Both the position numbers and the translations under genes were made by a program. Shown piece by piece: positions 14,724 to 29,655 of a DNA stretch of 64,000 nucleotides. The notes beneath the pieces were generated by a model. It made no database searches, was not told the DNA's origin, and saw only the letters and a program-made list of their open reading frames with translations. Numbering within the stretch: position 1 is the first letter of the stretch; every line of letters begins with the position of its first letter. The stretch is taken from NCBI RefSeq assembly GCF_030719295.1, contig NZ_CP120997.1, positions 4,971,501-5,035,500 of the forward strand, in the 5' to 3' direction. Source of the stretch: Streptomyces sp. Mut1. Lineage in GTDB: Bacteria > Actinomycetota > Actinomycetes > Streptomycetales > Streptomycetaceae.

Positions 14724-14735
14724 CTACGCGCGTAG
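14724..14735. promoter_or_regulatory. Palindromic operator candidate CTACGCGCGTAG upstream of add
   Basis: A perfect 12-bp palindrome lies 16 bases before the add start. The same 12 bases occur upstream of deoC (26087-26098) and of the purine nucleoside phosphorylase gene (29644-29655), and I found no other copy in the window. This suggests one regulator for nucleoside salvage; which protein binds is unknown. Confidence 0.6.
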
Positions 14736-14751
14736 GCGTTAGAGTGCGTGG

Positions 14752-15906
14752 ATGATGAGCCCGACCCTCAATGTGCCCGGCCAGGATCAGATCCGGCGTG
14801 CCCCCAAGGTCCTTCTGCACGACCACCTCGACGGCGGCCTGCGCCCCGGGACGATCGTCGACCTCGCGGCGGCGACCGGTTACGACGCGCTGCCCGAGAG
14901 CGAGCCGGACAAGCTCGGCATCTGGTTCCGGGAGGCCGCCGACTCCGGTTCGCTGGAGCGGTATCTGGAGACGTTCGCCCACACCTGCGCGGTCATGCAG
15001 ACCCGTGACGCGCTGTTCCGGGTCGCCGCCGAGTGCGCGGAGGACCTGGCGGCCGACGGTGTCGTCTACGCCGAGGTGCGGTACGCCCCCGAGCAGCACC
15101 TGGAGGCCGGGCTGACCCTCGAAGAGGTCGTGGAGGCCGTCAACGAGGGCTTCCGTGAGGGTGAGCGGCGGGCCCGGCGGGACGGGAACCGCATCCGGGT
15201 CGGCGCCCTGCTCACCGCGATGCGGCACGCCGCGCGGTCGCTGGAGATCGCCGAGCTCGCCAACAGCTACCGGGACCAGGGCGTCGTCGGCTTCGACATC
15301 GCGGGCGCCGAGGCAGGGTTCCCTCCCACCCGGCACCTGGACGCCTTCGAGTACCTCAAGCGCGAGAACAACCACTTCACCATCCACGCGGGCGAGGCCT
15401 TCGGGCTGCCGTCGATCTGGCAGGCCATCCAGTGGTGCGGCGCCGACCGGCTCGGCCACGGGGTCCGCATCATCGACGACATCGAGGTCGCGGAGGACGG
15501 CGGGGTGAAGCTGGGCCGCCTCGCCTCGTACGTACGGGACAAGCGCATCCCGCTGGAGCTCTGCCCGACGTCCAACCTCCAGACCGGGGCCGCCGCCTCG
15601 TACGCCGAGCACCCCATCGGACTCCTGCGCAAGCTGCACTTCCGGGCCACCGTCAACACGGACAACCGGTTGATGAGCGGTACGAGCATGAGCCAGGAAT
15701 TCGAGAAACTGACCGAGACATTCGGATACACGCTCGACGACATGCAGTGGTTCACCGTCAATGCGATGAAATCAGCATTCATTCCTTTCGATGAACGTCT
15801 GGCGATGATCAATGACGTCATCAAGCCCGGATATGCCGAGCTGAAGTCCGAGTGGCTTTTTGAGCAGACGGCTGCGACCAGCGTTTCTTCCTCGCTCGCG
15901 GGCTGA
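14752..15906 (+). CDS. add: Adenosine deaminase
   Basis: 384 residues. It hydrolyses adenosine or deoxyadenosine to inosine or deoxyinosine for purine salvage. Zinc ligands are seen in HDHLDGG (His23, His25) near the N-terminus and HAGEAFG (His212, Glu215). GHGVRI and PTSNLQTG follow, then [10 protein letters not shown] with Asp304 in the metal/catalytic loop (TDN rather than the commoner TDDP). Length and motifs fit the family throughout. ATG 14752 is followed at once by a second in-frame ATG at 14755. The gene follows the CTACGCGCGTAG palindrome and ends at a strong hairpin. Confidence 0.96.
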
Positions 15907-15916
15907 TGCGCCCGGA

Positions 15917-15956
15917 CGGAAAACGGCCGGGTAAGGGGAAGGGCGGCCGTTTTCCG
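15917..15956 (+). terminator. Hairpin terminator after add
   Basis: A 13-bp perfect inverted repeat (arms 15917-15929 and 15944-15956, loop 14) contains an A/T run near the arm ends and begins 11 bases after the add stop. Confidence 0.75.
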
Positions 15957-16040
15957 GGGTGATCGACGTTTGCGGGGAAGGGGTGCGGCTGACTACGTTG
16001 CGAAGCCGCTCACATCCCCTTCCCCAAGGATGAATGTCAT

Positions 16041-16355
16041 ATGAAGCAGTCTGCTGCCAGGACTCTCGGTGTCGCCGCTCTCGGTGCCGCCTTCGCCGCT
16101 GCCGCCGCCGGTACCGCTTCGGCCTCCGCGCTGCCGCTCGAAGCCGCGAGCAGCGTCCTGCCCGTCGCCGGTGCGGTCGCCGACGCCACGTCGACGCTGC
16201 CGGTCCAGGACACCGCCGACCAGCTGCTCGGCACCAGCCAGACGAAGGTTCTGGGCGACGCCACCACCCCCGTCAGGGGCCTCCTCGGCGGCATGCCGGC
16301 CGGCGGTCTGACCACCAGCGGCCTCTCCGCCAACGGCCTGCCGCTCGGCAGCTGA
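16041..16355 (+). CDS. Small secreted protein
   Basis: 104 residues from ATG 16041 with AAGGATG upstream as ribosome site. Residues 1-29 form a Sec signal peptide: MKQSAAR, a hydrophobic Ala/Gly core, then TASASA as cleavage region. The mature part is small, with LPVAGAVADATSTLP and a repeated L.GG/L..NGLPLG pattern, and no cysteines. I recognise no function. A similar-style secreted protein lies at 22317-22733, on the other side of the afsQ/sigQ cluster. The gene is monocistronic between two hairpins. Extracellular or cell-wall location is inferred. Confidence 0.7.
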   Translation: MKQSAARTLGVAALGAAFAAAAAGTASASALPLEAASSVLPVAGAVADATSTLPVQDTADQLLGTSQTKVLGDATTPVRGLLGGMPAGGLTTSGLSANGLPLGS

Positions 16356-16369
16356 GCCCTCCGCACCAC

Positions 16370-16420
16370 CGCACGCCTGTGGGCGGCCATCCCGACCGGG
16401 TGGCCGCCCACAGGCGTGCG
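16370..16420. terminator. Bidirectional hairpin terminator
   Basis: A 20-bp perfect inverted repeat (16370-16389 and 16401-16420, loop 11) lies between the convergent 16041 gene and the PspC-domain gene. It should stop transcription from both sides. Confidence 0.75.
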
Positions 16421-16436
16421 TACGGGGGCGGTACGG

Positions 16437-16649
16437 CTACCAGGCGCTCGCCGCCGAGGAGGAGCGCCCCTCCTCCTGGGGCAGCAGCACCCACAGCGCC
16501 AGGTAGAGCAGGAACTGCGGTCCCGGCAGCAGGCACGAGACCAGGAAGATGATGCGCATGGTCCTCGCGGACGTACCGAAGCGCCGGGCCAGCGCCGCGC
16601 ACACTCCGCCGAGCATGCGTCCGTCGCGGGGGCGGGCAAGTGCGGCCAT
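16437..16649 (-). CDS. PspC-domain membrane protein
   Basis: 70 residues from ATG 16649, chosen because GAAGGAG lies 8 bases upstream. It carries the PspC signature: LARPRDGRMLGGVCAALARRFG followed by TMRIIFLVSCLLPGPQFLLYLALWVLLPQEE, one hydrophobic helix pair. PspC-type proteins are linked to envelope stress sensing in bacteria; the role of stand-alone actinobacterial versions is less clear. The frame stays open upstream, but only this part matches the family. The C-terminus is a short Ser/Ala tail. It lies downstream of and parallel to the VanZ-family gene. Confidence 0.85.
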   Translation of the reverse strand: MAALARPRDGRMLGGVCAALARRFGTSARTMRIIFLVSCLLPGPQFLLYLALWVLLPQEEGRSSSAASAW

Positions 16650-16744
16650 GATGGGCTCCTTCGCGAACCGTTGCGGTGGGAGCGGTTCGTTGCGCCGCTC
16701 CCTGTATCTCCATGGTCGCGCGACGAACGGGGCAAAGCGTCGCT

Positions 16745-17293
16745 CTACGGGGCCATCCCGACCCTGGAAATCGTCGGGGTCGAACCCTGAGGGGCCTCGT
16801 GACCGCTCCGCGACACCTCCCGTACCCGCCTGGGGCCGCCCCGTCGCAGCCGCGCCCGGCCCACCGGTACGACCAGGACGTGGGCGATCGCGACGCCCGC
16901 CGTGTTCAGGAACATCGAGTCGACGTCGACCACCTGACCGGGCACCCCGGTCTGCCCCAGCTCGATGGCCAGCGAGATCAGCGCACCGGCCGCGACCGTC
17001 CGGGCCAGCGAGGACCACGGGGAGACGTGGAGCCGGCCGCCCGCCATCGGGAGCAGCACGCCCAGCGGCGCCAGCAGCAGAAGCCCCGCGCCGATCCGGC
17101 GGGCCGCGACGGCAGGCCCGAGCGACAGATCGGCCTTGATACCGGCGAACGGTGAGAGGTTGGCGGCGGTCACCCACGGCACGTCCAGGGGGCGCAGACT
17201 GAGCCACCCGACGAGCAGCAGATGCGCGAGGAGCAGCGACACCCCGACCGCGCGGAAGCGGATGACGGCCTGGCCGTCCGTACCTTGACGCAC
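16745..17293 (-). CDS. VanZ-family membrane protein
   Basis: 182 residues from GTG 17293. Four to five hydrophobic segments are visible: AVGVSLLLAHLLLVGWLSLRP, IGAGLLLLAPLGVLLP, LARTVAAGALISLAIELGQ and MFLNTAGVAIAHVLVVPVG. The block ANLSPFAGI, the Glu in SLAIELGQ and VDVDSMFLNTAGV are the conserved VanZ positions. The family includes the teicoplanin-resistance protein VanZ, but most members have no proven role. The cytoplasmic C-terminus is Arg-rich. The start is uncertain, as only a weak AGGG precedes the GTG. Confidence 0.82.
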   Translation of the reverse strand: MRQGTDGQAVIRFRAVGVSLLLAHLLLVGWLSLRPLDVPWVTAANLSPFAGIKADLSLGPAVAARRIGAGLLLLAPLGVLLPMAGGRLHVSPWSSLARTVAAGALISLAIELGQTGVPGQVVDVDSMFLNTAGVAIAHVLVVPVGRARLRRGGPRRVREVSRSGHEAPQGSTPTISRVGMAP

Positions 17294-17400
17294 GAAGCCC
17301 TAGACGCGGGCGGCGGCAGGATCGGTTCCGCACGGGCCGGGGAGACCTGCCTCACTGTGCGGGACCACCGGCCACACGGACGGGCCCGGCGGAGGGGCCC

Positions 17401-18018
17401 TTACGGCAGTCCGACCGAGCCCAGCGTCGGTACCGCCTTCGGGCTGGCCTTCGTCTCCGCCGTGCACAGATAGCCGCGCGCCGGGTACTTCCCCGGGCCG
17501 CCCAGCGTCACCGTCTCCCCGGGCGCCAGCTCCTCGTTCTCGGCGAAGGTGCAGACGATCTGGGCCAGCGCCTCGGCCGGCAGGTCCTCCGGCTGCTGGC
17601 TGAGCCGCAGCGCCTCCTTCGCGTCGCCCGCGCCGGGCCCGTAGACCCGGAGCGCCTTGGGGACGTCGGTGGAGAAGCCCGCCTGCTGCTCGTAGGCGGT
17701 GGGGCGGCGGCGCAGTTCGGTCAGCAGCTCGGTGGCGACCTGAAGACGGTCCGACTTCGCCGCCTCGACCTGCACCGCACGGTCCACCGTCACCAGCTGC
17801 GAGGCGCAGACCAGATAGATCTGTACGGGGGCGCCCCGCTCGGCCTCGGCGGCGACGTCCTCGGCGTGCAGCGCGCACGGCACCCGGGACGGGGCGGCTC
17901 CGGCGTCGACCGGCACCGATGTGGTGCGGATGCCGCAGCCCGCGACCAGTACGGCACAGAGTGCGGCACCGGCCAGGGCGGCGACGGGGCGGTGTCCCCG
18001 GCGTTCGCTGCGCCTCAC
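17401..18018 (-). CDS. Lipoprotein co-transcribed with afsQ1-afsQ2
   Basis: 205 residues from GTG 18018, overlapping the afsQ2 stop by 4 bases (GTGA). The N-terminus has RRSERRGHR, a hydrophobic stretch and the lipobox LVAGC (Cys near residue 28), so it should be anchored on the outer face of the membrane. The mature part holds three further cysteines (PCALHAED, YLVCASQLVTV, IVCTFAENEE) that may pair. Fused translation with a sensor kinase suggests it modulates or reports to AfsQ2, as the CseA lipoprotein does for CseB/CseC. That role is inference by analogy only. Confidence 0.8.
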   Translation of the reverse strand: MRRSERRGHRPVAALAGAALCAVLVAGCGIRTTSVPVDAGAAPSRVPCALHAEDVAAEAERGAPVQIYLVCASQLVTVDRAVQVEAAKSDRLQVATELLTELRRRPTAYEQQAGFSTDVPKALRVYGPGAGDAKEALRLSQQPEDLPAEALAQIVCTFAENEELAPGETVTLGGPGKYPARGYLCTAETKASPKAVPTLGSVGLP

Positions 18019-19556
18019 GTCGGGTCGTCCTCCTGGTGGTCCGGTATCGGTGCGTCGTGGTCCTCGGTGTCACGGCCCAGCGCCTCGGCGTCGCGCGGCA
18101 GGCGCAGCACGAAGATCGCGCCGTCGCCGTCCGGCGAGTTCCGGGCGGTGATGTCGCCGTTGTGGATGTGGGCGTTCTCCATGGCGATGGAGAGCCCGAG
18201 CCCGCTTCCCTCGGAGCGCGGCCGGGAGGCGCTCGCCTTGTAGAAGCGGTCGAAGACGTGCGGCAGGACGTCCTCCGGGATGCCGGGACCGTGGTCGCGG
18301 ACCTCGATGACCAGTTCCTCGCCCTCGATGCGCACCGAGACCCGGACCGGCGAACCGCCGTGCTTCAGCGCGTTTCCGATCAGGTTGGCCAGGATCACGT
18401 CGAGCCGGCGCGGATCGAGGCGGACCATCATGCCGCGCTCGGCGTCCAGGTCCACCGCGTCCAGCCAGGCGCGGGCGTCGATGCAGGCGGTCACCTGGTC
18501 GGCGACGTCCACGTCGTCCAGGACCAGGCGGGCGGTGCCCGCGTCGAAGCGGGTCACCTCCATCAGGTTCTCCACCAGGTCGTTGAGGCGCCGGGTCTCG
18601 CTCACCACCAGGTGCACGGCGGGCGCGATCATCGGGTCCAGGCTGTCGGCCTCCTCCTCCAGCACCTCGGCAACGGCCGTGATCGCGGTGAGCGGCGTGC
18701 GCAGCTCGTGCGACATGTCGGCGACGAAACGGCGGCTGGCCTCCTCGCGCGCGCTCATGTCCGCGACCTTCTTCTCCAGCGAGCCGGCCGTCTTGTTGAA
18801 CGTGCGGGAGAGATCGGCCAGTTCATCGGTGCCGGACACCACGAGCCGGGTGTCGAGCTTGCCCTCGCCGAGCTTGCGGGCCGCGTCCCCGAGCCGCTGC
18901 ACCGGGCGCAGCACGGTCGTCGCGGCGGCCTGGGCGAGCAGGGCCGAGCCGACCAGCGCGAGGGCCGTGGCGATCCCCAGCGACCAGGCCAGGGAACTGA
19001 GATCCTGGCGCTCCTGGTCGAGCGACTTGAGCATGTAGCCGGTCGGCCCGCCGCCGATGATCTTCGTACCGGCGACGAGGTACGGCGTACCGCGGATCGA
19101 GGTCCGCTGCCAGAACAGGTGGTACTCGTACTTGTTGCCCGCCTTGACCGGCTGCTTCTTGCTGACCTGCTTCTGGAGCGACGGCGGTACGTTGCTGCGC
19201 GTGAAGGTGTCCAGGTCGGAGTTGCCGACGATGGGCTTGCCCGGGTCGCGCTCGTCGATCAGGAGCACGCTGTAGCCGGGGCTGCTGCTCGCCATCTGCA
19301 CGGCCGCCGTCTGGAGGTCCTCCTTGGACGGGCGCGGCGGCAGCGAGGCCGCCCGCGTCTGCATCTCCTGACGGAAGTCCCCGAGCGCCGCGTCCTGCGT
19401 ACGCGTCAGTACGGCCTCGCGGTTCAGCCAGTACGCGATCCCGGACGCCGACACCGCGGCGGTCAGCGCGACCAGGGCGAACACGACGACGAGCCGCAGC
19501 CGCAGGCTGGTCCAGCGGAGCCCGGCCAGCAGGCTCCGCCGCACAGCCGTGCTCAC
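18015..19556 (-). CDS. afsQ2: Sensor histidine kinase AfsQ2
   Basis: 513 residues from GTG 19556. It has a transmembrane helix near 21-43, an extracellular sensor of about 145 residues, a second helix near 190-213, and a HAMP region (LRPVQRLGDAARKLGEGKLDTR). The HisKA motif is DMSHELRTPLTAI with His283. The HATPase boxes are LIGNALKHGGSPV, VRDHGPGIPEDVLPHVFDRFYK and EGSGLGLSIAMENAHIHNG. It should phosphorylate AfsQ1 in response to an envelope or nutritional signal; in S. coelicolor this pair links nitrogen status to antibiotic production. It overlaps afsQ1 and the lipoprotein gene by 4 bases each, so the three form one operon. Confidence 0.95.
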   Translation of the reverse strand: MSTAVRRSLLAGLRWTSLRLRLVVVFALVALTAAVSASGIAYWLNREAVLTRTQDAALGDFRQEMQTRAASLPPRPSKEDLQTAAVQMASSSPGYSVLLIDERDPGKPIVGNSDLDTFTRSNVPPSLQKQVSKKQPVKAGNKYEYHLFWQRTSIRGTPYLVAGTKIIGGGPTGYMLKSLDQERQDLSSLAWSLGIATALALVGSALLAQAAATTVLRPVQRLGDAARKLGEGKLDTRLVVSGTDELADLSRTFNKTAGSLEKKVADMSAREEASRRFVADMSHELRTPLTAITAVAEVLEEEADSLDPMIAPAVHLVVSETRRLNDLVENLMEVTRFDAGTARLVLDDVDVADQVTACIDARAWLDAVDLDAERGMMVRLDPRRLDVILANLIGNALKHGGSPVRVSVRIEGEELVIEVRDHGPGIPEDVLPHVFDRFYKASASRPRSEGSGLGLSIAMENAHIHNGDITARNSPDGDGAIFVLRLPRDAEALGRDTEDHDAPIPDHQEDDPT

Positions 19557-20230
19557 TGCGGCGAGTCCAGCCGGTATCCCACGCCCCGCACGGTACGGAT
19601 CAGGGTCGGCGACGACGGTACGTCCTCCACCTTGGCGCGCAGCCGCTGGACACAGGCGTCCACCAGCCGGGAGTCACCGAGGTAGTCGTGCTCCCACACC
19701 AGGCGCAGCAGTTGCTGCCGGGACAGGGCCTGGCCCGGCCGGCGGCTCAGTTCGAGCAGGAGGCGCAGCTCGGTCGGCGTGAGCTGCAGATCCTCGCCGT
19801 TCTTCGTGACGGTCATGGCGGACCGGTCGATCACCACGTTCCCGAACGTCGCGGAGTCGGTGGACTCCCGTTCGCCGCGGCGCAGCACCGCGCGGATACG
19901 GGCGTCGAGCACCCGCCCCTGCACAGGCTTGACCACGTAGTCGTCGGCGCCGGACTCGAGGCCCACCACGACGTCGATGTCGTCGCTGCGCGCGGTCAGC
20001 AGGATGATCGGCAGCTGGTCGGTGCGCCGGATGCGCCGGCACACCTCGAAACCGTCGATCCCGGGCAGCATCACATCCAGCACGACCAGGTCGGGGCGCT
20101 GCTCACGCAGCAGGTTGAGGCCGTCCTCTCCCGTCGCCGCGGTGGCCACACGGTGGCCCTGGCGTGACAGTGAGAGTTCGAGGGCCGTGCGGATGGCGTC
20201 GTCGTCCTCGATCAGCAACAGGAAAGGCAC
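19553..20230 (-). CDS. afsQ1: OmpR-type response regulator AfsQ1
   Basis: 225 residues from GTG 20230. The receiver domain begins at once (PFLLLIEDDD), has phospho-acceptor Asp52 (LVVLDVMLPG), a switch Thr in ILLTARSDD and Lys in DYVVKPVQGR. The DNA-binding winged helix carries LQLTPTELRLLLELSRRPGQ, RQQLLRLVWEHDYLGDSRLVD and RTVRGVGYRLD. The sequence is very close to what I recall of S. coelicolor AfsQ1. ATG 20248 would add six residues and has a slightly better upstream purine run, so the start is uncertain. It is divergent from sigQ and shares with it an exact AfsQ1 box. Confidence 0.95.
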   Translation of the reverse strand: MPFLLLIEDDDAIRTALELSLSRQGHRVATAATGEDGLNLLREQRPDLVVLDVMLPGIDGFEVCRRIRRTDQLPIILLTARSDDIDVVVGLESGADDYVVKPVQGRVLDARIRAVLRRGERESTDSATFGNVVIDRSAMTVTKNGEDLQLTPTELRLLLELSRRPGQALSRQQLLRLVWEHDYLGDSRLVDACVQRLRAKVEDVPSSPTLIRTVRGVGYRLDSPQ

Positions 20231-20343
20231 TTGGTCATTCTGACCCATGGGGCGTTCCAGTTCGACAGTTGGTCCCCCCTGATGCGCGCCCCATACGTCC
20301 CTCATGCAGCAACAAGCCCGATTTCGGGCCCTCACAGGGCCCT

Positions 20344-20359
20344 GTGACAGGCCTGTGAC
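20344..20359. promoter_or_regulatory. AfsQ1-binding box between afsQ1 and sigQ
   Basis: The sequence GTGACAGGCCTGTGAC fits the published AfsQ1 direct-repeat consensus GTnAC-n6-GTnAC exactly. It lies 83 bases before the sigQ start and 114 before the afsQ1 start, in line with direct control of sigQ and autoregulation. Confidence 0.7.
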
Positions 20360-20441
20360 AGTCGGCGGACACCCCCATGAAACTGCCCCGGCAAGCTCAT
20401 TGGCACAAGGACGGACGGACTCCACCGATGGGGGGCGCGAG

Positions 20442-21185
20442 ATGAACGCAACTCACAGCATCAACGCAAGCGCAGTTGTCACGCGTCTCCACGATGTCGG
20501 GCGGAGCACCGAGAAGTCCGGCGCCGCAGTGAACGGACGGGGGTGCGTTCGAGGCGCCGGGCGTCAGCACACGTCATTCATGACGGTGGTTGACGCGGGT
20601 AGCGGGGGAAGCTCGTACGGGGAGGGCTCGGGGGAGCGGCAGGCACCGGCACGGTCCGAGGACGCCGAAGCGGCGTTCACGGCCTACGTCCGGGAGCGCC
20701 GCGCCTCCCTGTACGCCACCGCCTACCACCTGACCGGTGACCGGTTCGAGGCCGAGGACCTGCTCCAGAGCGCCCTGTTCTCGACGTACCGGGCGTGGGA
20801 CCGGATCAGTGACAAGGCCGCGGTGGGCGGTTATCTGCGCCGCACGATGACCAATCTCCACATCAGCGCCTGGCGCAGGCGCAAGCTGAACGAATACCCG
20901 ACCGAGGAACTGCCGGAGACGGCGGGCGACACGGACGCGATGCGCGGCACGGAGCTGCGCGCCGTGCTCTGGCAGGCGCTGGCGCGGCTGCCGGAACTCC
21001 AGCGCACGATGCTGGTCCTTCGGTACTACGAGGGCCGCACGGACCCGGAGATCGCGTCCATCCTCGACATCAGTGTCGGCACGGTGAAGTCGAGCATCTG
21101 GCGGTCGCTCCGCCGGCTGCGCGAGGACGAGGTCCTCAGCTTCGGCCGTGACGAGGAGGAGTCCTTCGGCGAGCTGGTGGCCTGA
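20442..21185 (+). CDS. sigQ: ECF sigma factor SigQ
   Basis: 247 residues from ATG 20442 (G-rich GGGGGCGCGAG upstream). The first 70 residues are low-complexity and may not all be translated: a second ATG at 20580 would give 201 residues. Region 2 runs AYVRERRASLYATAYHLTGDRFEAEDLLQSALF, then YRAWDRISDKAAVGGYLRRTMTN. Region 4 is ALARLPELQRTMLVLRYYEGRTDPEIASILDISVGTVKSSIWRSLRRLRED. It resembles the SigE subfamily. In S. coelicolor SigQ is an AfsQ1 target that opposes AfsQ1-driven antibiotic activation. No anti-sigma gene is adjacent; afsQ1 control may take its place. Confidence 0.9.
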   Translation: MNATHSINASAVVTRLHDVGRSTEKSGAAVNGRGCVRGAGRQHTSFMTVVDAGSGGSSYGEGSGERQAPARSEDAEAAFTAYVRERRASLYATAYHLTGDRFEAEDLLQSALFSTYRAWDRISDKAAVGGYLRRTMTNLHISAWRRRKLNEYPTEELPETAGDTDAMRGTELRAVLWQALARLPELQRTMLVLRYYEGRTDPEIASILDISVGTVKSSIWRSLRRLREDEVLSFGRDEEESFGELVA

Positions 21186-21550
21186 AGGAACGGGGGAGCT
21201 GCCGCTTCGGGGGAGGCGGTGGTGTTACGGGGGAAACGGGGTCGGGGGGCCCGGGGGAACGGGGTACGGGGGATACGGGGGAACGGGGATACGGGGAAGC
21301 TGCGGGGTCGGACGGGCCGGGGGGTCCTGTCCGGCCCCGCGGTGCGTTCGGGGGCTCCGCCCCCGGGCCCCCGCTCCTCAATCGCCGGAGGGGCTGGATG
21401 TGACCGCTGCTCCTCAACCGGCGGAGGGGCTGGATGGTGAGCCCCGCTCCTCAAACGACGACGGACGGGCTGGATGGTGACCCCCGCTCCTCAAACGACG
21501 ACGGACGGGCCGGATGGTGACCCCCGCTCCTCAATCGGCGGAGGGACTTG
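21186..21550. repeat. G-rich tract and tandem copies of a dispersed GCTCCTCAA element
   Basis: Between sigQ and the kinase gene there is no ORF of coding quality. Bases 21190-21320 are a run of GGGGGAAC/GGGGATAC-type motifs with G4-G6 tracts. From 21373 five copies of an element starting GCTCCTCAA follow (21373, 21409, 21446, 21486, 21526). The last three are 40 bases apart and two are almost identical. The fifth copy supplies the stop codon of the minus-strand kinase. Single copies of the same element occur near 28708, 33122 and 37230. Confidence 0.8.
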
Positions 21551-22241
21551 AAGATGCCGCCGCGCGGCGGCGGCCCGCTGCCGCCGCTGCCAGGCGGCCC
21601 AGCGCTTCCCGTTTGTCGCAGGGGTGGGCGCCCAACTCCGTCTGGCGGGCCACGATGCGGCGTTCGCCGCGCATCAGGCGCCAGCCCCGCCGGAGCAGGA
21701 ACGGCACTGACTTGCGGCCCTCGCGCAGGTCGCGCAGGAGGCGGCGGCGGAACGTCGTGGAGGGCCGGCCGCGCAGGCACAGGGCGTCGGCCAGCAGGCC
21801 GAGCGACTGGCAGCGTCCGATGATGTCGGCGGCGAAGATCCCCTCGGCCACGAAGAGCGGGGTGCGCTCCATGTGGAAGGTCTCGTGCCCGGTGCGGGAG
21901 CTGGTGGAGATGTCGTACACCGGTACGTCGGTCCGGCCGGTGCGGCAGAGTTCTGCGATCGCCGCCACCGCGGCCTCGGCGTCCCAGGAGAGAGCGGAGT
22001 CCCAGTCGATGTCTGTACTGCCCTCGACGAGCGGCAGCGTGGGGTCGCCCGCCTCCTTGTAGAAGTCGTCCAGCCGCAGCACCGGGAGGCCGGTGCGGGC
22101 GGCGAGGGAGGACTTGCCGGAGCCGGAGGGGCCGGCCAGCAGGACGACACGGGTCGAAAGCGCTTGGGAACTCACAGGACACGAGTGTGAGGCATTGACC
22201 CGCACAGGGGACCCCTGGGTGGTCTTGTTGGTACCGCGCAT
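21531..22241 (-). CDS. Uridine kinase-like P-loop ATPase
   Basis: 236 residues from ATG 22241 (GAGGTG six bases upstream); GTG 22175 would shorten it by 22 residues. The Walker A motif is LLAGPSGSGKSSLAAR, followed by GLPVLRLDDFYKEAGDPTLP with the LDDFY motif of uridine/phosphoribulokinase-type enzymes, then DWDSALSWD and VAEGIFAADII as Walker B region. RPSTTFRRRLLRDLREGRKS resembles the lid. Phosphorylation of a nucleoside is likely, which would suit the salvage genes nearby, but the substrate is not proven. The extreme C-terminus is Ala/Arg then SSSPSAD, and its stop codon comes from the dispersed repeat. Confidence 0.82.
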   Translation of the reverse strand: MRGTNKTTQGSPVRVNASHSCPVSSQALSTRVVLLAGPSGSGKSSLAARTGLPVLRLDDFYKEAGDPTLPLVEGSTDIDWDSALSWDAEAAVAAIAELCRTGRTDVPVYDISTSSRTGHETFHMERTPLFVAEGIFAADIIGRCQSLGLLADALCLRGRPSTTFRRRLLRDLREGRKSVPFLLRRGWRLMRGERRIVARQTELGAHPCDKREALGRLAAAAAGRRRAAASSSPSAD

Positions 22242-22316
22242 CACACCTCAACTACGCTGTGCACTCGCTCGATTACTCGGCCGATGGTCCGTTCGGCCCG
22301 ATCAGGTGGGAAATCC

Positions 22317-22733
22317 ATGGCACGTCACGCACTTTCCAAGCCCCGGCGCCGCACCCTGCTGCGCGCAGGTCTGACCGTCACCGCGGTGGGTGCCGCGCTC
22401 GGCGCGGGGGGCGCGGCGGCGCAGGCCGCGCCGCTGCCCCTCGTCCAGGCGACCGGGACCGACACCAGCCTCGGGGAGGCCACCGAGGCGGCCGGCGGCG
22501 CGGTGACCGGGGCGCTCGGCCAGTCGCTCGACAACAGCATCGCGCCCGTCACCCACCTGCGGCTCGACCCGCTGGCCGGCACCGGCGTCGACCCGCTGGA
22601 CAACGTGGTGGGCACCCAGATCGCCGACTTCAAGCCGCTGTCCACGGGGCTGGTCACCGACCCGGTGACCAGCGGCGGCGCGCTGAAGGACCTGCCCGTC
22701 GTCGGTCAGGTCGTGGGCGCGCTGCACGGCTGA
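22317..22733 (+). CDS. Small secreted protein
   Basis: 138 residues from ATG 22317. The N-terminus (KPRRRTLLRAGLTVTAVGAALGAGGAAAQA) is a signal peptide with an Arg cluster, cleaved probably after AQA. The mature part repeats small motifs (LGEATEAAGGAVTGALGQSLD, PLAGTGVDPLDNVVG, LPVVGQVVGALHG), with no cysteine and no known domain. It resembles in style the secreted protein at 16041-16355. An in-frame upstream ATG (22284) would put 11 charged residues before the signal and was not chosen. A cell-wall or extracellular place is inferred. Confidence 0.7.
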   Translation: MARHALSKPRRRTLLRAGLTVTAVGAALGAGGAAAQAAPLPLVQATGTDTSLGEATEAAGGAVTGALGQSLDNSIAPVTHLRLDPLAGTGVDPLDNVVGTQIADFKPLSTGLVTDPVTSGGALKDLPVVGQVVGALHG

Positions 22734-22743
22734 CACGGAGCGT

Positions 22744-22779
22744 GGCCCGTGCCCCGGAGAAACTTCCCGGGCACGGGCC
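22744..22779. terminator. Hairpin between convergent genes
   Basis: An 11-bp perfect inverted repeat (22744-22754 and 22769-22779, loop 14) sits 10 bases after the 22317 gene and 15 before the end of the minus-strand aldehyde dehydrogenase. Confidence 0.65.
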
Positions 22780-22794
22780 GCGCCCACGCGTACG

Positions 22795-23685
22795 TCAGTA
22801 CGAGGAGCCCGACACGCCCAGGGCGCCCGTCGGGTGCCAGACCGTCTTGGTCTCCAGGAACGCCGTCAGGCGGTGCGTGCCCGGGTCGGCGGACCAGTCG
22901 TCGCCGTCGTGCGGGCGGGAGACGCGCTTCAGGTTGTCGGCCGCCGCGATCTGGAGTTCCTTCGCCAGATCCGCGTCCGCCCCCGTCAGGTCGATGCCGT
23001 TCACGTCCTGGTGGGCGGCGAGCGGGGCGGCGATCTCCGCGGTCTTCCCCGACAGGATGTTGACCACACCACCCGGCAGGTCCGATGTGGCCAGCACCTC
23101 GCCCAGCGACAGGGCGGGCAGCGGGGACTTCGCGGAGGCCACCACGACCGCCGTGTTACCGGACGCGATCACCGGGGCGATCACCGAGACCAGGCCCAGG
23201 AACGAGGACTCCTGCGGCGCGAGGACGGTCACCACGCCGGACGGCTCGGGCGTCGACAGGTTGAAGAACGGACCCGCGACCGGGTTCGCCCCGCCCACGA
23301 CCTGGGCGATCTTGTCCGTCCAGCCCGCGTACCAGACCCAGCGGTCCACCGCCGCGTCCACGACGGCCGCCGCCTTGGACTTCGACAGCCCCTCGGCCTC
23401 GGCCACCTCGCGTACGAACTGCTCGCGGCGGCCCTCCAGCATCTCCGCGACGCGGTAGAGGATCTGGCCGCGGTTGTACGCGGTCGCGCCCGACCAGCCG
23501 CCGAACGCCTTGCGGGCGGCCACGACCGCGTCGCGCGCGTCCTTGCGGGAGGACTGGGGCGCGTTCGCCAGCCACTTGCCCTTCGAGTCCGTCACCTCGT
23601 ACACCCGGCCGCTCTCGGAGCGGGGGAACTTGCCCCCGACGTACAGCTTGTAGGTCTTGAAGACGCTCAGACGGTTATCGGACAT
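22795..23685 (-). CDS. Aldehyde dehydrogenase-like protein lacking the catalytic half
   Basis: 296 residues from ATG 23685, overlapping the upstream aldehyde dehydrogenase gene by 11 bases. It has the ALDH N-terminal and NAD-binding region: YVGGKFPRSESGR, AVVAARKAFGGW, VVTVLAPQESSFLGL, VIASGNTAVVVAS, DLPGGVVNILSG. It stops before the part that carries the catalytic Cys and the C-terminal oligomer arm; full enzymes have about 480 residues. Also, where ELGG with the general base would follow, only DLTGAD is found. It is intact, not a frameshift, so it may pair with the full-length neighbour as a regulatory or structural subunit. Its own activity is doubtful. Confidence 0.85.
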   Translation of the reverse strand: MSDNRLSVFKTYKLYVGGKFPRSESGRVYEVTDSKGKWLANAPQSSRKDARDAVVAARKAFGGWSGATAYNRGQILYRVAEMLEGRREQFVREVAEAEGLSKSKAAAVVDAAVDRWVWYAGWTDKIAQVVGGANPVAGPFFNLSTPEPSGVVTVLAPQESSFLGLVSVIAPVIASGNTAVVVASAKSPLPALSLGEVLATSDLPGGVVNILSGKTAEIAAPLAAHQDVNGIDLTGADADLAKELQIAAADNLKRVSRPHDGDDWSADPGTHRLTAFLETKTVWHPTGALGVSGSSY

Positions 23686-25114
23686 CGAGGTACGCCTCCA
23701 GGCCGTGGCGGCCGCCTTCGCGGCCGAAGCCCGACTCCTTGTAACCGCCGAACGGCGAGGTCGGGTCGAACTTGTTGAACGTGTTGGCCCAGACGACACC
23801 CGCCCGGAGCTTGTTCGCCACCGCGAGGATGCGGGAGCCCTTCTCCGTCCAGATGCCCGCCGACAGGCCGTACTGGCTGTTGTTGGCCTTGGCGACCGCC
23901 TCGTCGGGGGTGCGGAACGACAGTACGGAGAGCACCGGGCCGAAGATCTCGTCGCGGGCGATCGTGTGCGCCTGGGTGACGTTGGTGAACAGCGTCGGGG
24001 CGAACCAGTAGCCCGCCGAGGGCAGTTCGCAGGGGGCCGACCAGCGGTCCGCGCCCTCCGCCTCGCCGGTCTCCACGAGCGCGCTGATCCGGGCCAGCTG
24101 CTCAGCGGAGTTGATCGCGCCGATGTCGGTGTTCTTGTCCAGCGGGTCGCCGAGGCGCAGCGTGGACAGCCGCCGCTTGAGCGCGTCCAGCAGCTCGTCC
24201 TGGATCGACTCCTGGACCAGCAGCCGGGAGCCCGCGCAGCACACCTGGCCCTGGTTGAAGAAGATGCCCGTGACGATGCCCTCGACGGCCTGGTCGATGG
24301 GGGCGTCGTCGAAGACGATGTTGGCGCCCTTGCCGCCCAGCTCCAGGGTGACCTTCTTGTCGGTCCCCGCGACCTGGCGGGCGATGGCCTTGCCGACGGC
24401 GGTCGAGCCGGTGAAGGCGACCTTGTTCACGTCGCTGTGCGAGACGAGCGCCTCGCCCGCGTCGCCGTACCCCGTCAGGATGTTGACGACACCCCTGGGC
24501 AGGCCCGCCTGGCGGCAGATGTCCGCGAAGAACAGCGCCGACAGGGGCGTCGTCTCGGCGGGCTTCAGCACCACGGTGTTGCCCGTGGCGAGGGCCGGGG
24601 CGATCTTCCAGGCCAGCATCAGGAGCGGGAAGTTCCACGGGATGACCTGGCCGGCCACGCCCAGCGGGCGCGGGTTCGGGCCGTAGCCCGCGTGGTCCAG
24701 CTTGTCGGCCCAGCCCGCGTAGTAGAAGAAGTGCGCGGCGACCAGCGGGAGGTCCGCGTCGCGCGTCTCCTTGATCGGCTTGCCGTTGTCCAGGGTCTCC
24801 AGGACGGCCAGCTCACGGCTGCGCTCCTGGATGATCCGGGCGATCCGGAACAGGTACTTGGCGCGCTCGGAGCCGGGCAGCGCCGACCACTTCTCGAACG
24901 CCCGGCGGGCCGCCTTCACGGCCCGGTCCACGTCGTCGGCGCCGGCCCGCGCGACCTCGGACAGCACCTCCTCGCTGCTCGGCGAGACGGTCTTGAAGAC
25001 CTTGCCGTCGGCCGCGTCGGTGAACTCACCGTCGATGAACAGGCCGTACGAGGGGGCGATGTCGACGACCGACCGCGACTCGGGCGCGGGTGCGTACTCG
25101 AATGCAGATGCCAT
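23675..25114 (-). CDS. NAD(P)-dependent aldehyde dehydrogenase
   Basis: 479 residues from ATG 25114. The full ALDH motifs are VIPWNFPLLMLAWKIAPALATGNT, the cofactor loop FTGSTAVGKAI, general base Glu258 (VTLELGGKGANIVFDD), nucleophile Cys292 (FFNQGQVCCAGSR) and EIFGPVLSVLSF. It oxidises an aldehyde to an acid; the natural substrate cannot be told. It starts 6 bases after the deoC stop and runs into the truncated ALDH, so deoC-aldh-aldh is probably one operon. Because DeoC yields acetaldehyde, this enzyme may convert it onward to acetate; that is inference from gene order. Confidence 0.93.
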   Translation of the reverse strand: MASAFEYAPAPESRSVVDIAPSYGLFIDGEFTDAADGKVFKTVSPSSEEVLSEVARAGADDVDRAVKAARRAFEKWSALPGSERAKYLFRIARIIQERSRELAVLETLDNGKPIKETRDADLPLVAAHFFYYAGWADKLDHAGYGPNPRPLGVAGQVIPWNFPLLMLAWKIAPALATGNTVVLKPAETTPLSALFFADICRQAGLPRGVVNILTGYGDAGEALVSHSDVNKVAFTGSTAVGKAIARQVAGTDKKVTLELGGKGANIVFDDAPIDQAVEGIVTGIFFNQGQVCCAGSRLLVQESIQDELLDALKRRLSTLRLGDPLDKNTDIGAINSAEQLARISALVETGEAEGADRWSAPCELPSAGYWFAPTLFTNVTQAHTIARDEIFGPVLSVLSFRTPDEAVAKANNSQYGLSAGIWTEKGSRILAVANKLRAGVVWANTFNKFDPTSPFGGYKESGFGREGGRHGLEAYLDVR

Positions 25115-25119
25115 GGGTA

Positions 25120-26067
25120 TCAGTCCACCGTCACGTAATCGGGGCCGGAGTAACGGCCGGTGCTGAGCTTCTGGCGCTGCATCAGCAGGTCGTTCAGCAG
25201 GCTGGAGGCGCCGAAACGGAACCAGTGGTTGTCCAGCCAGTCCTCGCCCGCGGTCTCGTTGACCAGGACGAGGAACTTGATCGCGTCCTTGGAGGTACGG
25301 ATGCCGCCGGCCGGCTTCACCCCGATCTGGACACCGGTCTGCGCGCGGAAGTCGCGCACCGCCTCCAGCATCAGCAGGGTGTTCGCGGGCGTGGCGTTCG
25401 TCGCCACCTTGCCGGTCGAGGTCTTGATGAAGTCCGCGCCCGCCAGCATCCCCAGCCAGGAGGCCCGCCGGATGTTGTCGTACGTGGACAGCTCGCCGGT
25501 CTCGAAGATGACCTTCAGGCGGGCGTTCCCGCACTCCGCCTTCACGGCGACGATCTCCTCGTAGACCTTCGAGTAGTGGCCGGCCAGGAAGGCGCCCCGG
25601 TCGATCACCATGTCGATCTCGTCGGCCCCTGCCGCCACGGCGTCCCGGACGTCCGCGAGCTTGACGTCCAGCGCGGCCCGCCCGGCGGGGAAGGCCGTCG
25701 CCACGGACGCCACCTTCACGCCGGAGCCGGCCAGGGCGGCGGACGCGGTGGCCGCCATGTCGGGGTAGACGCAGACCGCGGCGGTGCGCGGGGTCGTGCG
25801 GTCGGTCGGATCCGGGTTGACGGCCTTGGCGGCGAGCGCCCGGACCTTGCCGGGGGTGTCCGCGCCTTCCAGCGTCGTCAGGTCGATCATGGAGATGGCG
25901 AGGTCGATGGCGTAGGCCTTGGCCGTCGTCTTGATCGAACGGGTTCCGAGGGAAGCGGCGCGCGCTTCGAGGCCGACGGCGTCGACGCCGGGCAGCCCGT
26001 GCAGGAAGCGGCGCAGCGCACTGTCGGACGCCGTCGCGTCGGCGAATGCGGGGAGGGTGGTGGGCAT
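25120..26067 (-). CDS. deoC: Deoxyribose-phosphate aldolase
   Basis: 315 residues from ATG 26067, with AGGTGG nine bases upstream (GTG 26076 is an alternative). It cleaves 2-deoxyribose-5-phosphate to glyceraldehyde-3-phosphate and acetaldehyde. Visible family elements are AVCVYPDMAATASAAL, VKVASVATAFPAGR, ADEIDMVIDRGAFL, LKVIFETGEL and the Schiff-base lysine in AGADFIKTSTGKV, followed by VGVKPAGGIRT. The family core is about 220 residues; this longer form has an N-terminal extension of about 90 residues. The CTACGCGCGTAG palindrome lies 20 bases upstream. Confidence 0.95.
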   Translation of the reverse strand: MPTTLPAFADATASDSALRRFLHGLPGVDAVGLEARAASLGTRSIKTTAKAYAIDLAISMIDLTTLEGADTPGKVRALAAKAVNPDPTDRTTPRTAAVCVYPDMAATASAALAGSGVKVASVATAFPAGRAALDVKLADVRDAVAAGADEIDMVIDRGAFLAGHYSKVYEEIVAVKAECGNARLKVIFETGELSTYDNIRRASWLGMLAGADFIKTSTGKVATNATPANTLLMLEAVRDFRAQTGVQIGVKPAGGIRTSKDAIKFLVLVNETAGEDWLDNHWFRFGASSLLNDLLMQRQKLSTGRYSGPDYVTVD

Positions 26068-26086
26068 GGTCACCACCTGAGCATAT

Positions 26087-26098
26087 CTACGCGCGTAG
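26087..26098. promoter_or_regulatory. Palindromic operator candidate CTACGCGCGTAG upstream of deoC
   Basis: Identical to the sites before add and the purine nucleoside phosphorylase gene. Read in the deoC direction it is followed by ATATG and preceded by CTGTAC about 10 bases upstream, so it may overlap the promoter core. Confidence 0.6.
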
Positions 26099-26129
26099 CG
26101 ACCTGTACAGCGGCCCAGGTCGTCCGCTT

Positions 26130-26194
26130 ATCGCGCACCGGCGCGTCCACGGATCGCGCACCGGCGCGTCCACGGATCGCGCACCGGCGCGCGA
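26130..26194. repeat. Tandem 23-bp repeats
   Basis: Two identical 23-bp units (26130-26152 and 26153-26175) and a partial third unit begin ATCGCGCACCGGCGCG. They lie in the gap between divergent deoC and the PH-domain gene. They are GC-rich and partly palindromic (CACCGGCGCG). A role is not apparent. Confidence 0.75.
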
Positions 26195-26248
26195 GCACCG
26201 GGCAGCCGCCCCTCACGCCCCCCGGCCGCGTCAGGCACAATCGGGCTC

Positions 26249-26887
26249 ATGACGAGCCCCACGCCTCCCACCGAGCCCACCTACGCCGACCGGACCTTCC
26301 GGTCGCCCGCCGGGCTGGCCGGGGGTGTCCTGCTGCTCGTGCTCATCTGCTGGATCGGCGGCGACGCCGCGTTCCGGGGCCACGGCCGCGCGCCGTGGAT
26401 GGCGCTCGCCGGGCTGCTGACCGTGGTGCCGCTGATCGTCGCCTTCACACTGCGCCCGGTGGTGTTCGCGAACGACCGGCGCGTCCGGGTCCGCAACCCG
26501 TTCCGCACGATCACGCTGCCCTGGACCGACGTCGCCGATGTACGGGCCGGGTATTCGAGTGAGCTGTTCACCCACGACGGCACGAAGTACCAGCTCTGGG
26601 CCGTGCCGGTGTCGCTGCGACAGCGCAAGAAGGCCGCCCGCCAGCAGTCCCGGCAGGCACTGGACGACCCCTACCGCCGTACTTCCGCGACCGCCGATGT
26701 ACGCGACACCAAGGCCCGTGTCGCCGTGGCGGACCAGGCGGTGGCGGACCTGCGCGAGCTCTCCGAACGCGCCGGCGACAAGCCCGCGCCGGACGCCCCC
26801 GTGAGGTCGGTGCGCTGGGCGTACGAGGTCATCGCTCCGTCGGTCGTGGGCGTGGTGCTGCTGGTGGTGCTGGGGGCACTGGGCTGA
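26249..26887 (+). CDS. PH-domain membrane protein
   Basis: 212 residues from ATG 26249. Two N-terminal hydrophobic helices (LAGGVLLLVLICWIGGDAAF and APWMALAGLLTVVPLIVAF) precede a bacterial PH-like domain (LRPVVFANDRRVRVRNPFRTITLPWTDVADVRAGYSSELFTHDGTKYQLWAVPVSLRQRK). A helical, charged linker (DVRDTKARVAVADQAVADLRELSERA) and a third C-terminal helix (VIAPSVVGVVLLVVLGALG) follow. Such actinobacterial proteins are membrane-bound and of unknown function. It is divergent from the deoC operon and convergent with the phospho-sugar mutase gene. Confidence 0.82.
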   Translation: MTSPTPPTEPTYADRTFRSPAGLAGGVLLLVLICWIGGDAAFRGHGRAPWMALAGLLTVVPLIVAFTLRPVVFANDRRVRVRNPFRTITLPWTDVADVRAGYSSELFTHDGTKYQLWAVPVSLRQRKKAARQQSRQALDDPYRRTSATADVRDTKARVAVADQAVADLRELSERAGDKPAPDAPVRSVRWAYEVIAPSVVGVVLLVVLGALG

Positions 26888-26939
26888 GCCGGAGCGCCGG
26901 ACCGGGGCGCCGCTCGGGCACCCCGGCCGGCCCCGGGCG

Positions 26940-28586
26940 TCAGATACCGGCCGCGGCGGCCAGGTCCCGCTTGATGGCCGTCAGCAGCTCGGTGGCCCGG
27001 GTGCGGGCCGCCGGGAGGCCGTCGGGCGCGGCGACGGGCACCACGACCTCCAGGTAGCACTTCAGCTTGGGCTCGGTGCCGCTCGGGCGGACGATCACCC
27101 GGGCGCCCTCCAGCCCGTAGCGCAGCCCGTCGGTGGGCGGTAGCCGGTCCGTGCCGACGGACAGGTCCTCGGCGCGGGTGACGGGCAGGCCGGCCAGAGC
27201 CGTCGGGGGCTGTTCCCGCAGGCGGCGCATGGCATCCGCGATGACCGAGAGATCCTGCACCCGGACCGAGAGCTGGTCCGTCGCGTGCAGGCCGTGCTCC
27301 AGGGCGAGGTCGTCCAGCAGGTCCAGGAGCGTGCGGCCCTGTTCCTTGAGTACGGAGGCCAGCTCGGCGACGAGCAGCGCGGCCGTGATGCCGTCCTTGT
27401 CGCGGACGCCGTCCGGGTCGACGCAGTAGCCGAGCGCCTCCTCGTACCCGTAGCGCAGCCCCTCGACGCGGGCGATCCACTTGAAGCCCGTCAGCGTCTC
27501 CTCGTAGCCCAGGCCCGCCTTCTCGGCGATCCGGCCGAGCAGCGACGACGAGACGATCGACTCGGCGAACACGCCGGAGGCGCCCCGGCGCACGAGGTGG
27601 GCGGCGAGCAGCGCGCCGACCTCGTCGCCGCGCAGCATCCGCCAGCCGCCGTCCGCCGCCCGATCGGGTACGGCGACGGCGCAGCGGTCGGCGTCCGGGT
27701 CGTTGGCGATAACGATGTCGGGGTCCGAGCGGCGCGCGGTCGCGAACGCGAGATCCATCGCGCCGGGCTCCTCCGGATTGGGGAAGGCCACGGTGGGGAA
27801 CGCGGGGTCCGGCTCGGCCTGCTCCGCGACGAGCACCGGGGCGGGGAAGCCGGCCCGGTCGAAGGCGGCGGTGAGCACGGAGGCGCCGACACCGTGCATC
27901 GCGGTGTACACGACGCGGGCGGTACGCGGCGAAGCGGCGTCGAGTACGGAGTCCGTGCGCGCGAGATACGCGTCCAGCACCTCGTCGCCGAGGGTCTCCC
28001 AGCCGTCGCCGGGGCGGGGGACGGTCTCCAGCGGGCCGACCGCCGCGATGGCGGCCGCGATCTCGCCGTCGGCCGGCGGCACGATCTGCGAGCCGTCGCC
28101 GAGGTAGACCTTGTATCCGTTGTCGCGCGGCGGATTGTGGCTGGCGGTCACCTCGACGCCCGCGACGGCGCCCAGGTGCCTTATGGCGTACGCGAGGACC
28201 GGGGTGGGAAGGGGGCGGGGGAGTACCGCCGCGCGCAGACCGGCGCCCGTCATCACGGCCGCCGTGTCCCGGGCGAAGTCGGCGGACTTGTAGCGGGCGT
28301 CGTAGCCGACGACGACGAGACCGCCGGCCTGGCCCTGGTCCTTGAGGTACGCGGCGAGGCCGGCGGCGGCCCGGATGACCACGGCCCGGTTCATCCGCAT
28401 GGGGCCCGCGCCCAGCTCGCCCCGGAGCCCGGCGGTGCCGAACTGGAGCGTGCCGGCGAAGCGGGCGGCGAGCTCGTCCAGCTCCTGCGCGTCGATGAGC
28501 TTGGCCAGCTCGTCGCGGGTCTCGGGGTCGGGGTCCTCGGCGAGCCAGGTCCTGGCCCGGGTGAGGAGGTCCGGCGTGGTCGTCAC
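26940..28586 (-). CDS. Phospho-sugar mutase (phosphoglucomutase/phosphomannomutase family)
   Basis: 548 residues from GTG 28586. Alpha-D-phosphohexomutase motifs are visible: phosphoserine loop VTASHNPPRDNGYKVY, metal loop IANDPDADRCAVAVPD, sugar-binding loop YGYEEALGYCVDPDGVRDKDG and phosphate-binding loop RPSGTEPKLKCYLEV. It moves phosphate between C1 and C6 of hexose, or C1 and C5 of ribose/deoxyribose. The position beside purine nucleoside phosphorylase and near deoC makes the phosphopentomutase-type reaction plausible, linking nucleoside breakdown to DeoC; this is inference. A GAAAGGCGG sequence upstream may serve as ribosome site. Confidence 0.93.
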   Translation of the reverse strand: MTTTPDLLTRARTWLAEDPDPETRDELAKLIDAQELDELAARFAGTLQFGTAGLRGELGAGPMRMNRAVVIRAAAGLAAYLKDQGQAGGLVVVGYDARYKSADFARDTAAVMTGAGLRAAVLPRPLPTPVLAYAIRHLGAVAGVEVTASHNPPRDNGYKVYLGDGSQIVPPADGEIAAAIAAVGPLETVPRPGDGWETLGDEVLDAYLARTDSVLDAASPRTARVVYTAMHGVGASVLTAAFDRAGFPAPVLVAEQAEPDPAFPTVAFPNPEEPGAMDLAFATARRSDPDIVIANDPDADRCAVAVPDRAADGGWRMLRGDEVGALLAAHLVRRGASGVFAESIVSSSLLGRIAEKAGLGYEETLTGFKWIARVEGLRYGYEEALGYCVDPDGVRDKDGITAALLVAELASVLKEQGRTLLDLLDDLALEHGLHATDQLSVRVQDLSVIADAMRRLREQPPTALAGLPVTRAEDLSVGTDRLPPTDGLRYGLEGARVIVRPSGTEPKLKCYLEVVVPVAAPDGLPAARTRATELLTAIKRDLAAAAGI

Positions 28587-28696
28587 GGTGTCCGCCTTTC
28601 GGGGAGGGGGTGCGGTGGGGTGGGGGCGGTGCGGGGTGGTGCGGGTGCGTTGCGCCTGCGGCGGGCCTGTTCCCCTACCCGCCCCTTCCCGTAACC

Positions 28697-28742
28697 GGGG
28701 CTCCGCCCCGGACCCCGCTCCTCAAGCGCCGGAGGGGCTGGG
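28697..28742. repeat. Dispersed GCTCCTCAA element copy
   Basis: A GGGGCTCCGCCCC hairpin is followed by GGACCCCGCTCCTCAAGCGCC and GGAGGGGCTGG. It lies downstream of the minus-strand nucleoside phosphorylase gene and matches elements at 21353-21402, 33099-33149 and 37208-37257. It may act as a terminator. Confidence 0.7.
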
Positions 28743-28793
28743 TTCTGGGGCTCCGTCCCGGGGGTGTGGGGGCAGCGCCCCCACAGTGGTCCC

Positions 28794-29618
28794 TCAGATT
28801 CGGTCCAGTACCCGGGCCAGCAGGGACCCCATCCGGGTCGCCGAGTCGCGGCCCGCCTGAAGGACCTCCTCGTGGTTCAGCGGCTCGCCGCTGAGCCCCG
28901 CCGCCAGGTTTGTCACCAGGGAGAGGCCGAGGACCTCCGCGCCCGCCTCGCGGGCCGCGATCGCTTCGAGGACCGTGGACATGCCGACGAGGTCGCCGCC
29001 CATGACGCGTACCATGCCGATCTCGGCCGGCGTCTCGTAGTGCGGGCCGGGGAACTGCACGTACACGCCCTCTTCGAGCGTCGCGTCGACCTCCTTGCAC
29101 AGCGCCCGCAGCCGCGGCGAGTACAGGTCGGTCAGGTCGACGAAGTTCGCGCCGACGATCGGCGACGCGGCGGTCAGGTTGATGTGGTCGCTGATCAGGA
29201 CCGGCTGCCCGGGGCGCATCCCCTCGCGCAGACCGCCGCAGCCGTTCGTCAGGATCACGGTCCGGCAGCCCGCGGCGACCGCGGTGCGCACCCCGTGCGC
29301 CACGGCGGCGACGCCGCGGCCCTCGTAGAAGTGCGTACGGCCCAGGAACACCAGGGCGCGCTTGTCACCGATCACGTGCGAGCGGACCGTGCCGCCGTGG
29401 CCCTCGACGGCGGGCGCGGGGAAGCCGGGGAGCGCGGTCACCGGGAACTCGGCCTCCGGGACACCGAGCGCGGCACCGGCGGGCGCCCAGCCGGAGCCCA
29501 TCACGAGGGCGACGTCGTGGGTCTCGGCGCCGGTCAGCTCGCGCAGGCGGGCGGCGGCGTCGTCGGCGGCGGCGTACGGGTCGCCCTGGATGTGGTCCGG
29601 AATAAGTGATGCGTTCAC
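28794..29618 (-). CDS. punA: Purine-nucleoside phosphorylase
   Basis: 274 residues from GTG 29618. It performs phosphorolysis of (deoxy)inosine and (deoxy)guanosine, giving base plus (deoxy)ribose-1-phosphate. Trimeric PNP motifs: [100 protein letters not shown] and [12 protein letters not shown], the last matching the base-binding TN. Length fits the family. The palindrome CTACGCGCGTAG lies 26 bases upstream. With Add it feeds purines and pentose phosphates to the mutase and DeoC. Confidence 0.95.
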
Positions 29619-29643
29619 GCGGATGAGCGTAACCGCTGATTCC

Positions 29644-29655
29644 CTACGCGCGTAG
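29644..29655. promoter_or_regulatory. Palindromic operator candidate CTACGCGCGTAG upstream of punA
   Basis: This is the third identical copy of the 12-bp palindrome. As at deoC, a CTGTAC motif lies upstream (14 bases before the site, read in the gene direction), perhaps part of a shared promoter arrangement. Confidence 0.6.

Follow-up and report, generated by a model that had tools for sequence, protein, structure and literature searches.

A 12-bp palindrome conserved at nucleoside-salvage promoters of Streptomycetaceae, a putative repressor operator with a candidate DeoR-type binder

Genes and palindromic sites at the locus

Three exact copies of the palindrome CTACGCGCGTAG were located by pattern search in the window (the whole 64-kb stretch of Streptomyces sp. 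Mut1 DNA that was analyzed), at 14724-14735, 26087-26098 and 29644-29655, in the promoters of add, deoC and punA, respectively. The identities of these genes, as assigned in an earlier sequence-only reading, were confirmed by profile matches above cut-off. The gene add (14752..15906, plus strand) encodes an adenosine deaminase of 384 aa (PF00962 and NF006847), deoC (25120..26076, minus strand) a deoxyribose-phosphate aldolase of 318 aa (TIGR00126) and punA (28794..29618, minus strand) a purine-nucleoside phosphorylase of 274 aa (TIGR01698). Sites are also present at deoC and punA in other genomes. The distance of 16-26 bases to the start codon given earlier had to be revised: the gap is 16 nt at add (ATG 14752) and 25 nt at punA (GTG 29618), and the range fails at deoC, where 10 nt separate the palindrome from the first GTG (26076) and 19 nt from an in-frame ATG.

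An aldehyde dehydrogenase ORF (23675..25534, minus strand) lies downstream of deoC. Its PF00171 match covers residues 172-618 and its real start is later than that of the ORF; judged from the arrangement of the genes, it is probably carried on the same transcript as deoC. Downstream of punA is the gene for a phosphohexomutase-family protein of 548 aa (26940..28586, minus strand) with GlmM-like matches, all below cut-off, which from its position between deoC and punA could supply the pathway's phosphopentomutase. A DeoR-type regulator with PF08220 (HTH_DeoR) and PF00455 (DeoRC) domains, both above cut-off, is encoded at 32090..33076 on the plus strand. Inspection by eye revealed a tandem direct repeat upstream of the deoC site (26130-26191), with about 2.7 copies of the 23-bp unit ATCGCGCACCGGCGCGTCCACGG.

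Copies of the palindrome in the genome

The sequence-only reading had placed the identical palindrome at three sites and nowhere else in the 64 kb. This was borne out, and the whole genome (7.99 Mb, 4 contigs) holds no fourth exact copy, all three being at the salvage genes add, deoC and punA and none at unrelated genes. The reversed palindrome, used as a control, has 0 copies in this genome. When one mismatch was allowed, 24 places were found for CTACGCGCGTAG versus 19 for the control. In the window, allowing two mismatches added only 44101-44112 (2 mismatches) to the three exact copies, and the resulting four matches represent no excess over the shuffle mean of 3.87. Given three exact copies and 24 versus 19 places, the exact sequence is a special word while words with one mismatch are mostly background.

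Of the 21 one-mismatch places in the genome, two belong to the same pathway. One, CTACGCGTGTAG, lies upstream of an ABC-transporter operon approximately 11 kb before the window (L005:8714), for which neighboring genes suggest a nucleoside substrate; the other, CTATGCGCGTAG, lies upstream of deoA, encoding thymidine phosphorylase, approximately 6 kb before the window (L005:13196). Nine of the other one-mismatch places were inspected, and none showed a convincing link.

These two promoters were compared in 80 named contigs that a deoA search yielded (the best 80 among 591 confirmed). Among these best 80 of 591, the best match before the transporter ATPase was exact in 47 of 78 loci, CTACGCGTGTAG in 21 and had at least four mismatches in 10. 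Before deoA, again in the best 80 of 591, it was CTATGCGCGTAG in 28 of 80 loci, CTATGCGTGTAG in three and TTACGCGCGTAG in one, so that a site with up to two mismatches is present in 32/80; since the match in the other 48 had at least four mismatches, deoA possesses its own site in part of the family only.

For the transporter ATPase, encoded shortly before the window (L005:8803, genome position 4960802), the start codon is apparently ATC. It is preceded by AAGGAG, and no in-frame ATG, GTG or TTG occurs between the preceding stop and the ATC. Among 77 named loci (from the best 80 of 591), 53 had the ATC with no standard start in the stretch walked, 23 had both and one had neither.

Position of the sites in the predicted promoters

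A predicted -10 element follows the palindrome in each of the three promoters. At add it is TAGAGT (14740..14745, plus strand), which starts 4 bp past the palindrome and is followed 6 nt later by the ATG. At deoC it is TATGCT (26080..26085, minus strand), 1 bp past the palindrome, and at punA it is TACGCT (29626..29631, minus strand), 12 bp past the palindrome with the GTG 7 nt further on. Based upon these predictions, add and punA are likely to give leaderless transcripts, that of punA probably starting at the GTG.

The elements recur in relatives. Of 99 distinct contexts of the add site, many of which were fetched through add itself, 93 have TANNNT at the corresponding position, in 52 cases as TAGAGT. 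At punA, 38 of the 40 distinct contexts have TACNCT 12-13 bp past the site. For the deoC-proximal site, the element was TATGCT in six of seven genomes, Streptomyces sp. Mut1 among them, and TATGGT in the remaining one.

A CTGTAC motif had been described upstream of the deoC and punA sites. It is indeed present at both in Streptomyces sp. Mut1, but as a signal it did not hold up: of the distinct contexts, 8 for deoC and 40 for punA, it occurs in just the two from this genome, and it is therefore not considered part of the signal.

Conservation within Streptomycetaceae

Exact copies of CTACGCGCGTAG number two to six in each of 91 genomes of the genus (Streptomyces sp. Mut1 included), amounting to 343 copies versus 53 of the reversed control. 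At the level of the family, 199 of 200 Streptomycetaceae genomes searched have at least one exact copy. The sole exception, G158, has CTACTCGCGTAG before deoC and a site with two mismatches before punA, and it has the DeoR protein. The site was at add (in one case an add paralogue), punA, deoC or the transporter in 18 of 19 same-genus loci checked, and in the 19th (L036) it was at the contig end. In named loci with an add start (best 80 of 591), the best match before add was exact in 57 of 58 and had at least four mismatches in the remaining one. A scan of this and other Streptomyces genomes had been proposed along with the sequence-only reading; it returned salvage-gene sites kept at orthologous promoters across genus and family.

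In one genome (G012) deoC, punA and add are far apart on the chromosome, each with a site, and this retention of sites after gene relocation supports the regulon. The relocated deoC of this genome (locus L099) carries two exact operators, at 5965 and 6035, 70 bp from each other.

Beyond the family the picture is different. Among 59 genomes of other families a single copy was found in each of three, none near salvage genes. In 11 genomes from the two other families that have the relatives of the DeoR-type candidate described below there was no exact CTACGCGCGTAG and no copy with one mismatch in the deoA regions, and the genomes had 2-6 places at one mismatch versus 20-35 control places. No recurrent shared palindrome stood out in the deoA clusters of 20 genomes outside Streptomycetaceae; these regions (363 kb) had no exact CTACGCGCGTAG and one copy with a single mismatch. 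Many of these regions (L416-L435), taken from other families of actinobacteria, show a cluster of transporter genes, cdd, deoA and add and lack an exact CTACGCGCGTAG. Thus, in the genomes of other families searched, a regulon with CTACGCGCGTAG was not seen.

Two other readings of the palindrome were weighed. That the three copies are due to chance would agree with near-matches that are no richer in the window than in shuffles and are close in number to the control in the genome; this reading is refuted by the exact site at add in the 57 of 58 named loci, and the surplus over control copies in the genus, at orthologous promoters, leaves it with a negligible probability. The other reading takes CTACGCGCGTAG as the operator of an activator, for which the lack of a clear conserved -35 hexamer upstream of these promoters (aligned contexts, by eye) might speak. 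However, the palindromes are centered at approximately -22 (add), -20 (deoC) and -32 (punA) from the presumed starts and overlap the spacer or the edge of the -10 element, whereas activators usually need a fixed position. An activator is thus considered very unlikely. A repressor fits better because the operator overlaps the predicted core promoter at differing offsets, and the gaps of 4, 1 and 12 bp to the predicted -10 elements of add, deoC and punA suggest one acting by steric hindrance.

Further sites in relatives

Nineteen regions with exact sites outside the cluster were examined in other same-genus genomes. Eight belong to an add paralogue, one to deoC, one to the transporter operon and one to a secreted hydrolase. 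The other eight (L089, L090, L092, L094, L096, L097, L098 and L104) had no evident link and were taken as chance occurrences.

The add paralogue, 61.5-63.5% identical to the add studied here, holds the palindrome inside the gene, in codons 3-7, in eight genomes (G007, G026, G033, G049, G061, G063, G067 and G084), which were picked for their extra sites so that the number is no frequency among all such paralogues. These codons specify Ala-Thr-Arg-Val-Asp/Glu, the first four being written GCT ACG CGC GTA. In the gene calls of the paralogue loci, GCT makes up 2.5% of the Ala codons and GTA 4.4% of the Val codons.

A site before purN-purH was exact in seven of nine genomes of genus g57, which is probably Kitasatospora, and had one mismatch in the other two. 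It was exact in the single g58 genome, had one mismatch in the single g54 genome and two in G152. The remaining 18 of the 30 genomes, including all six of the genus of Streptomyces sp. Mut1, had at least three mismatches.

The secreted hydrolase has an exact site shortly upstream of its probable start in six loci from six genomes and three genera (L091, L219, L221, L223, L226 and L228), the proteins being 51-88% identical over aligned segments. The exact site occurs twice in L221, and a second imperfect copy lies beside it in L228 and L091. The 120 homologues that were listed are annotated as hypothetical protein, hydrolase or immune inhibitor A, and the predicted structure is of low confidence (mean pLDDT 32.5 alone and 49.9 with 12 sequences). 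Other genera of the family have further exact sites in L143, L148, L170, L216, L222, L230, L231 and L233, with no evident link at those that were followed up. At L222:4568-4596 (G240) CTACGCGCGTAG and the operator-like palindrome CTACGTGCGTAG, with starts 17 bp apart, are located beside a CopD-like gene.

Candidate binders

The DeoR-type protein at 32090-33076, put forward earlier as one candidate, remains the best one for the binder, at a level of confidence of about one half. It is encoded by 90 of 91 genomes of the genus and by 31 of 32 from the family, the miss in both sets being G001, which is 79% complete. Of its first 60 alignment columns 57 are invariant in 51 family genomes, while the neighboring TetR protein varies, and its sole solved relative by sequence is a deoxyribose operon repressor (7l6l). 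The gene is 2.4 kb from the punA site in Streptomyces sp. Mut1, a closeness that is weak evidence since the punA-DeoR region is syntenic anyway, and in two distant genera (G154 and G157) it lies 7-8 kb from that site. Comparison with NCBIfam equivalogs gave only matches below cut-off, E. coli DeoR included.

Several observations keep the estimate at one half. The candidate's own promoter is free of the palindrome, no CTACGCGCGTAG being present there in 30 loci, and autoregulation through this site was rejected. The other parts of the protein, sensor domain included, are nearly as conserved as the DNA-binding domain. Its relatives in other families adjoin an ABC-transporter operon (L107 and L109) or other genes and have no link to nucleoside genes; in their loci (L106-L109) a few matches to the motif with two mismatches were found, none in a promoter. 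In addition, the palindrome has a central C|G step. The DeoR promoter of the family (31950-32095) contains two other conserved elements, approximately TATACCACTT and TTCGGCGCAAACTGCTGAA, in 30 aligned loci (L057-L086).

With operator and regulon unchanged, the binder could instead be another repressor encoded elsewhere, for example of LacI, GntR or TetR type, sensing a purine or nucleoside; this is given slightly less than an even chance. LacI-type operators such as those of CebR and PurR have a central C|G, and the step found here, together with the 12-bp symmetry, resembles them. LacI genes number 30, 15 and 36 in three genomes, and in the partial sets compared (22 of 30, 10 of 15 and 17 of the 25 loci fetched out of 36) the groups L261 and L269, the latter presumably MalR-like, were reciprocal best matches of more than 50% identity in all three. 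However, unlike DeoR, these proteins have DNA-binding domains that vary from genus to genus, and in Streptomyces sp. Mut1 every LacI gene is over 600 kb away from the sites. A TetR regulator encoded beside deoA was rejected, such a gene being found in 0 of 80 named loci (best 80 of 591; some loci end soon after deoA). The sites at purN-purH suggest a purine signal, and in Bacillus thuringiensis the uptake of nucleosides is under a GntR/HutC regulator (PMC9430930). A literature search, with most subscription papers outside its reach, gave no regulator named for these genes.

Model of the regulon

The nucleoside/pentose regulon proposed from the sequence is strongly supported by conservation at orthologous promoters, the lack of such a regulon in the genomes searched outside the family, two added targets in the pathway and sites kept after relocation. 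It is almost certain that a regulon for nucleoside uptake and salvage operates under CTACGCGCGTAG and is specific to Streptomycetaceae, and a single repressor probably governs its import and breakdown genes jointly. From the observed sharing, conservation and promoter position of the sites we infer the following mode of repression, binder and effector. A homodimeric repressor would bind CTACGCGCGTAG within the core promoters of add, deoC (with the aldehyde dehydrogenase gene), punA (with the phosphomutase gene) and the nucleoside ABC-transporter operon, as well as that of deoA in some members of the family, and would block RNA polymerase until nucleosides become available. The repressor would most likely be the DeoR-type protein 32090-33076, whose DeoRC sensor domain may read a pentose phosphate derived from nucleosides (deoxyribose-5-P or ribose-1/5-P). 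The occurrence of purN-purH under the operator in some genera agrees with a purine signal no less than with a sugar phosphate. The model as a whole, with a repressor operator, a salvage regulon and the DeoR-type protein as binder, is judged to have an even chance of being correct. A wider version is doubtful: that one pentose-phosphate-sensing DeoR-type repressor, its DNA-binding domain and operator nearly frozen, gained the sites at purN-purH, at the secreted hydrolase and in the codons of the add paralogue, thereby coupling salvage to other needs.

The results fix a cis-element and a gene list for the control of nucleoside salvage in antibiotic producers and name a testable regulator. They also provide a clear case of a transcription-factor site kept without change throughout a bacterial family even as new genes joined its regulon. 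Nucleoside and purine pools are known to feed (p)ppGpp signaling and antibiotic production (reviewed in PMC6627660), and for this reason the operator switch may matter for strain improvement.

Comparison with known systems

Dedicated control of nucleoside transport has a counterpart in NupR of Bacillus thuringiensis, a regulator of the GntR/HutC family which acts on Bacillus genes through an imperfect site of 20 bp (PMC9430930), in contrast to the 12-bp palindrome found here. The deo regulon of E. coli under DeoR and CytR likewise comprises nucleoside uptake and deo-type salvage genes, which would here also be repressed, and DeoR belongs to the protein family of the candidate. Operators at deo-type salvage genes are in both cases common to unlinked units. 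In E. coli, DeoR occupies its operator and is released by deoxyribose-5-P; of the DeoR-type candidate here, presence and conservation were observed. The E. coli DeoR operator is the 16-bp TGTTAGAA-TTCTAACA and differs from the palindrome; here, moreover, the genes are in separate units, add and the ABC transporter are included, and the binder is a candidate only.

A close likeness exists to a motif known from S. coelicolor. In 2004 (BMC Microbiol 4:14), Studholme, Bentley and Kormanec reportedly described there the motif CTACgcNCGTAG before genes assigned to 'nucleotide conversions', said to be a computational motif from one genome with no regulator attached. With N = G, the palindrome agrees with the reported consensus CTACGCNCGTAG at every letter, and the genes downstream of the sites are of the same class, nucleotide/nucleoside conversion. 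Because of this near-identical motif the palindrome is probably not new, and the term undescribed, applied earlier to the regulon, should probably be narrowed to what goes beyond CTACgcNCGTAG: the family-wide conservation of the regulon, the position of its sites in the predicted promoters, the extra targets and a candidate regulator.
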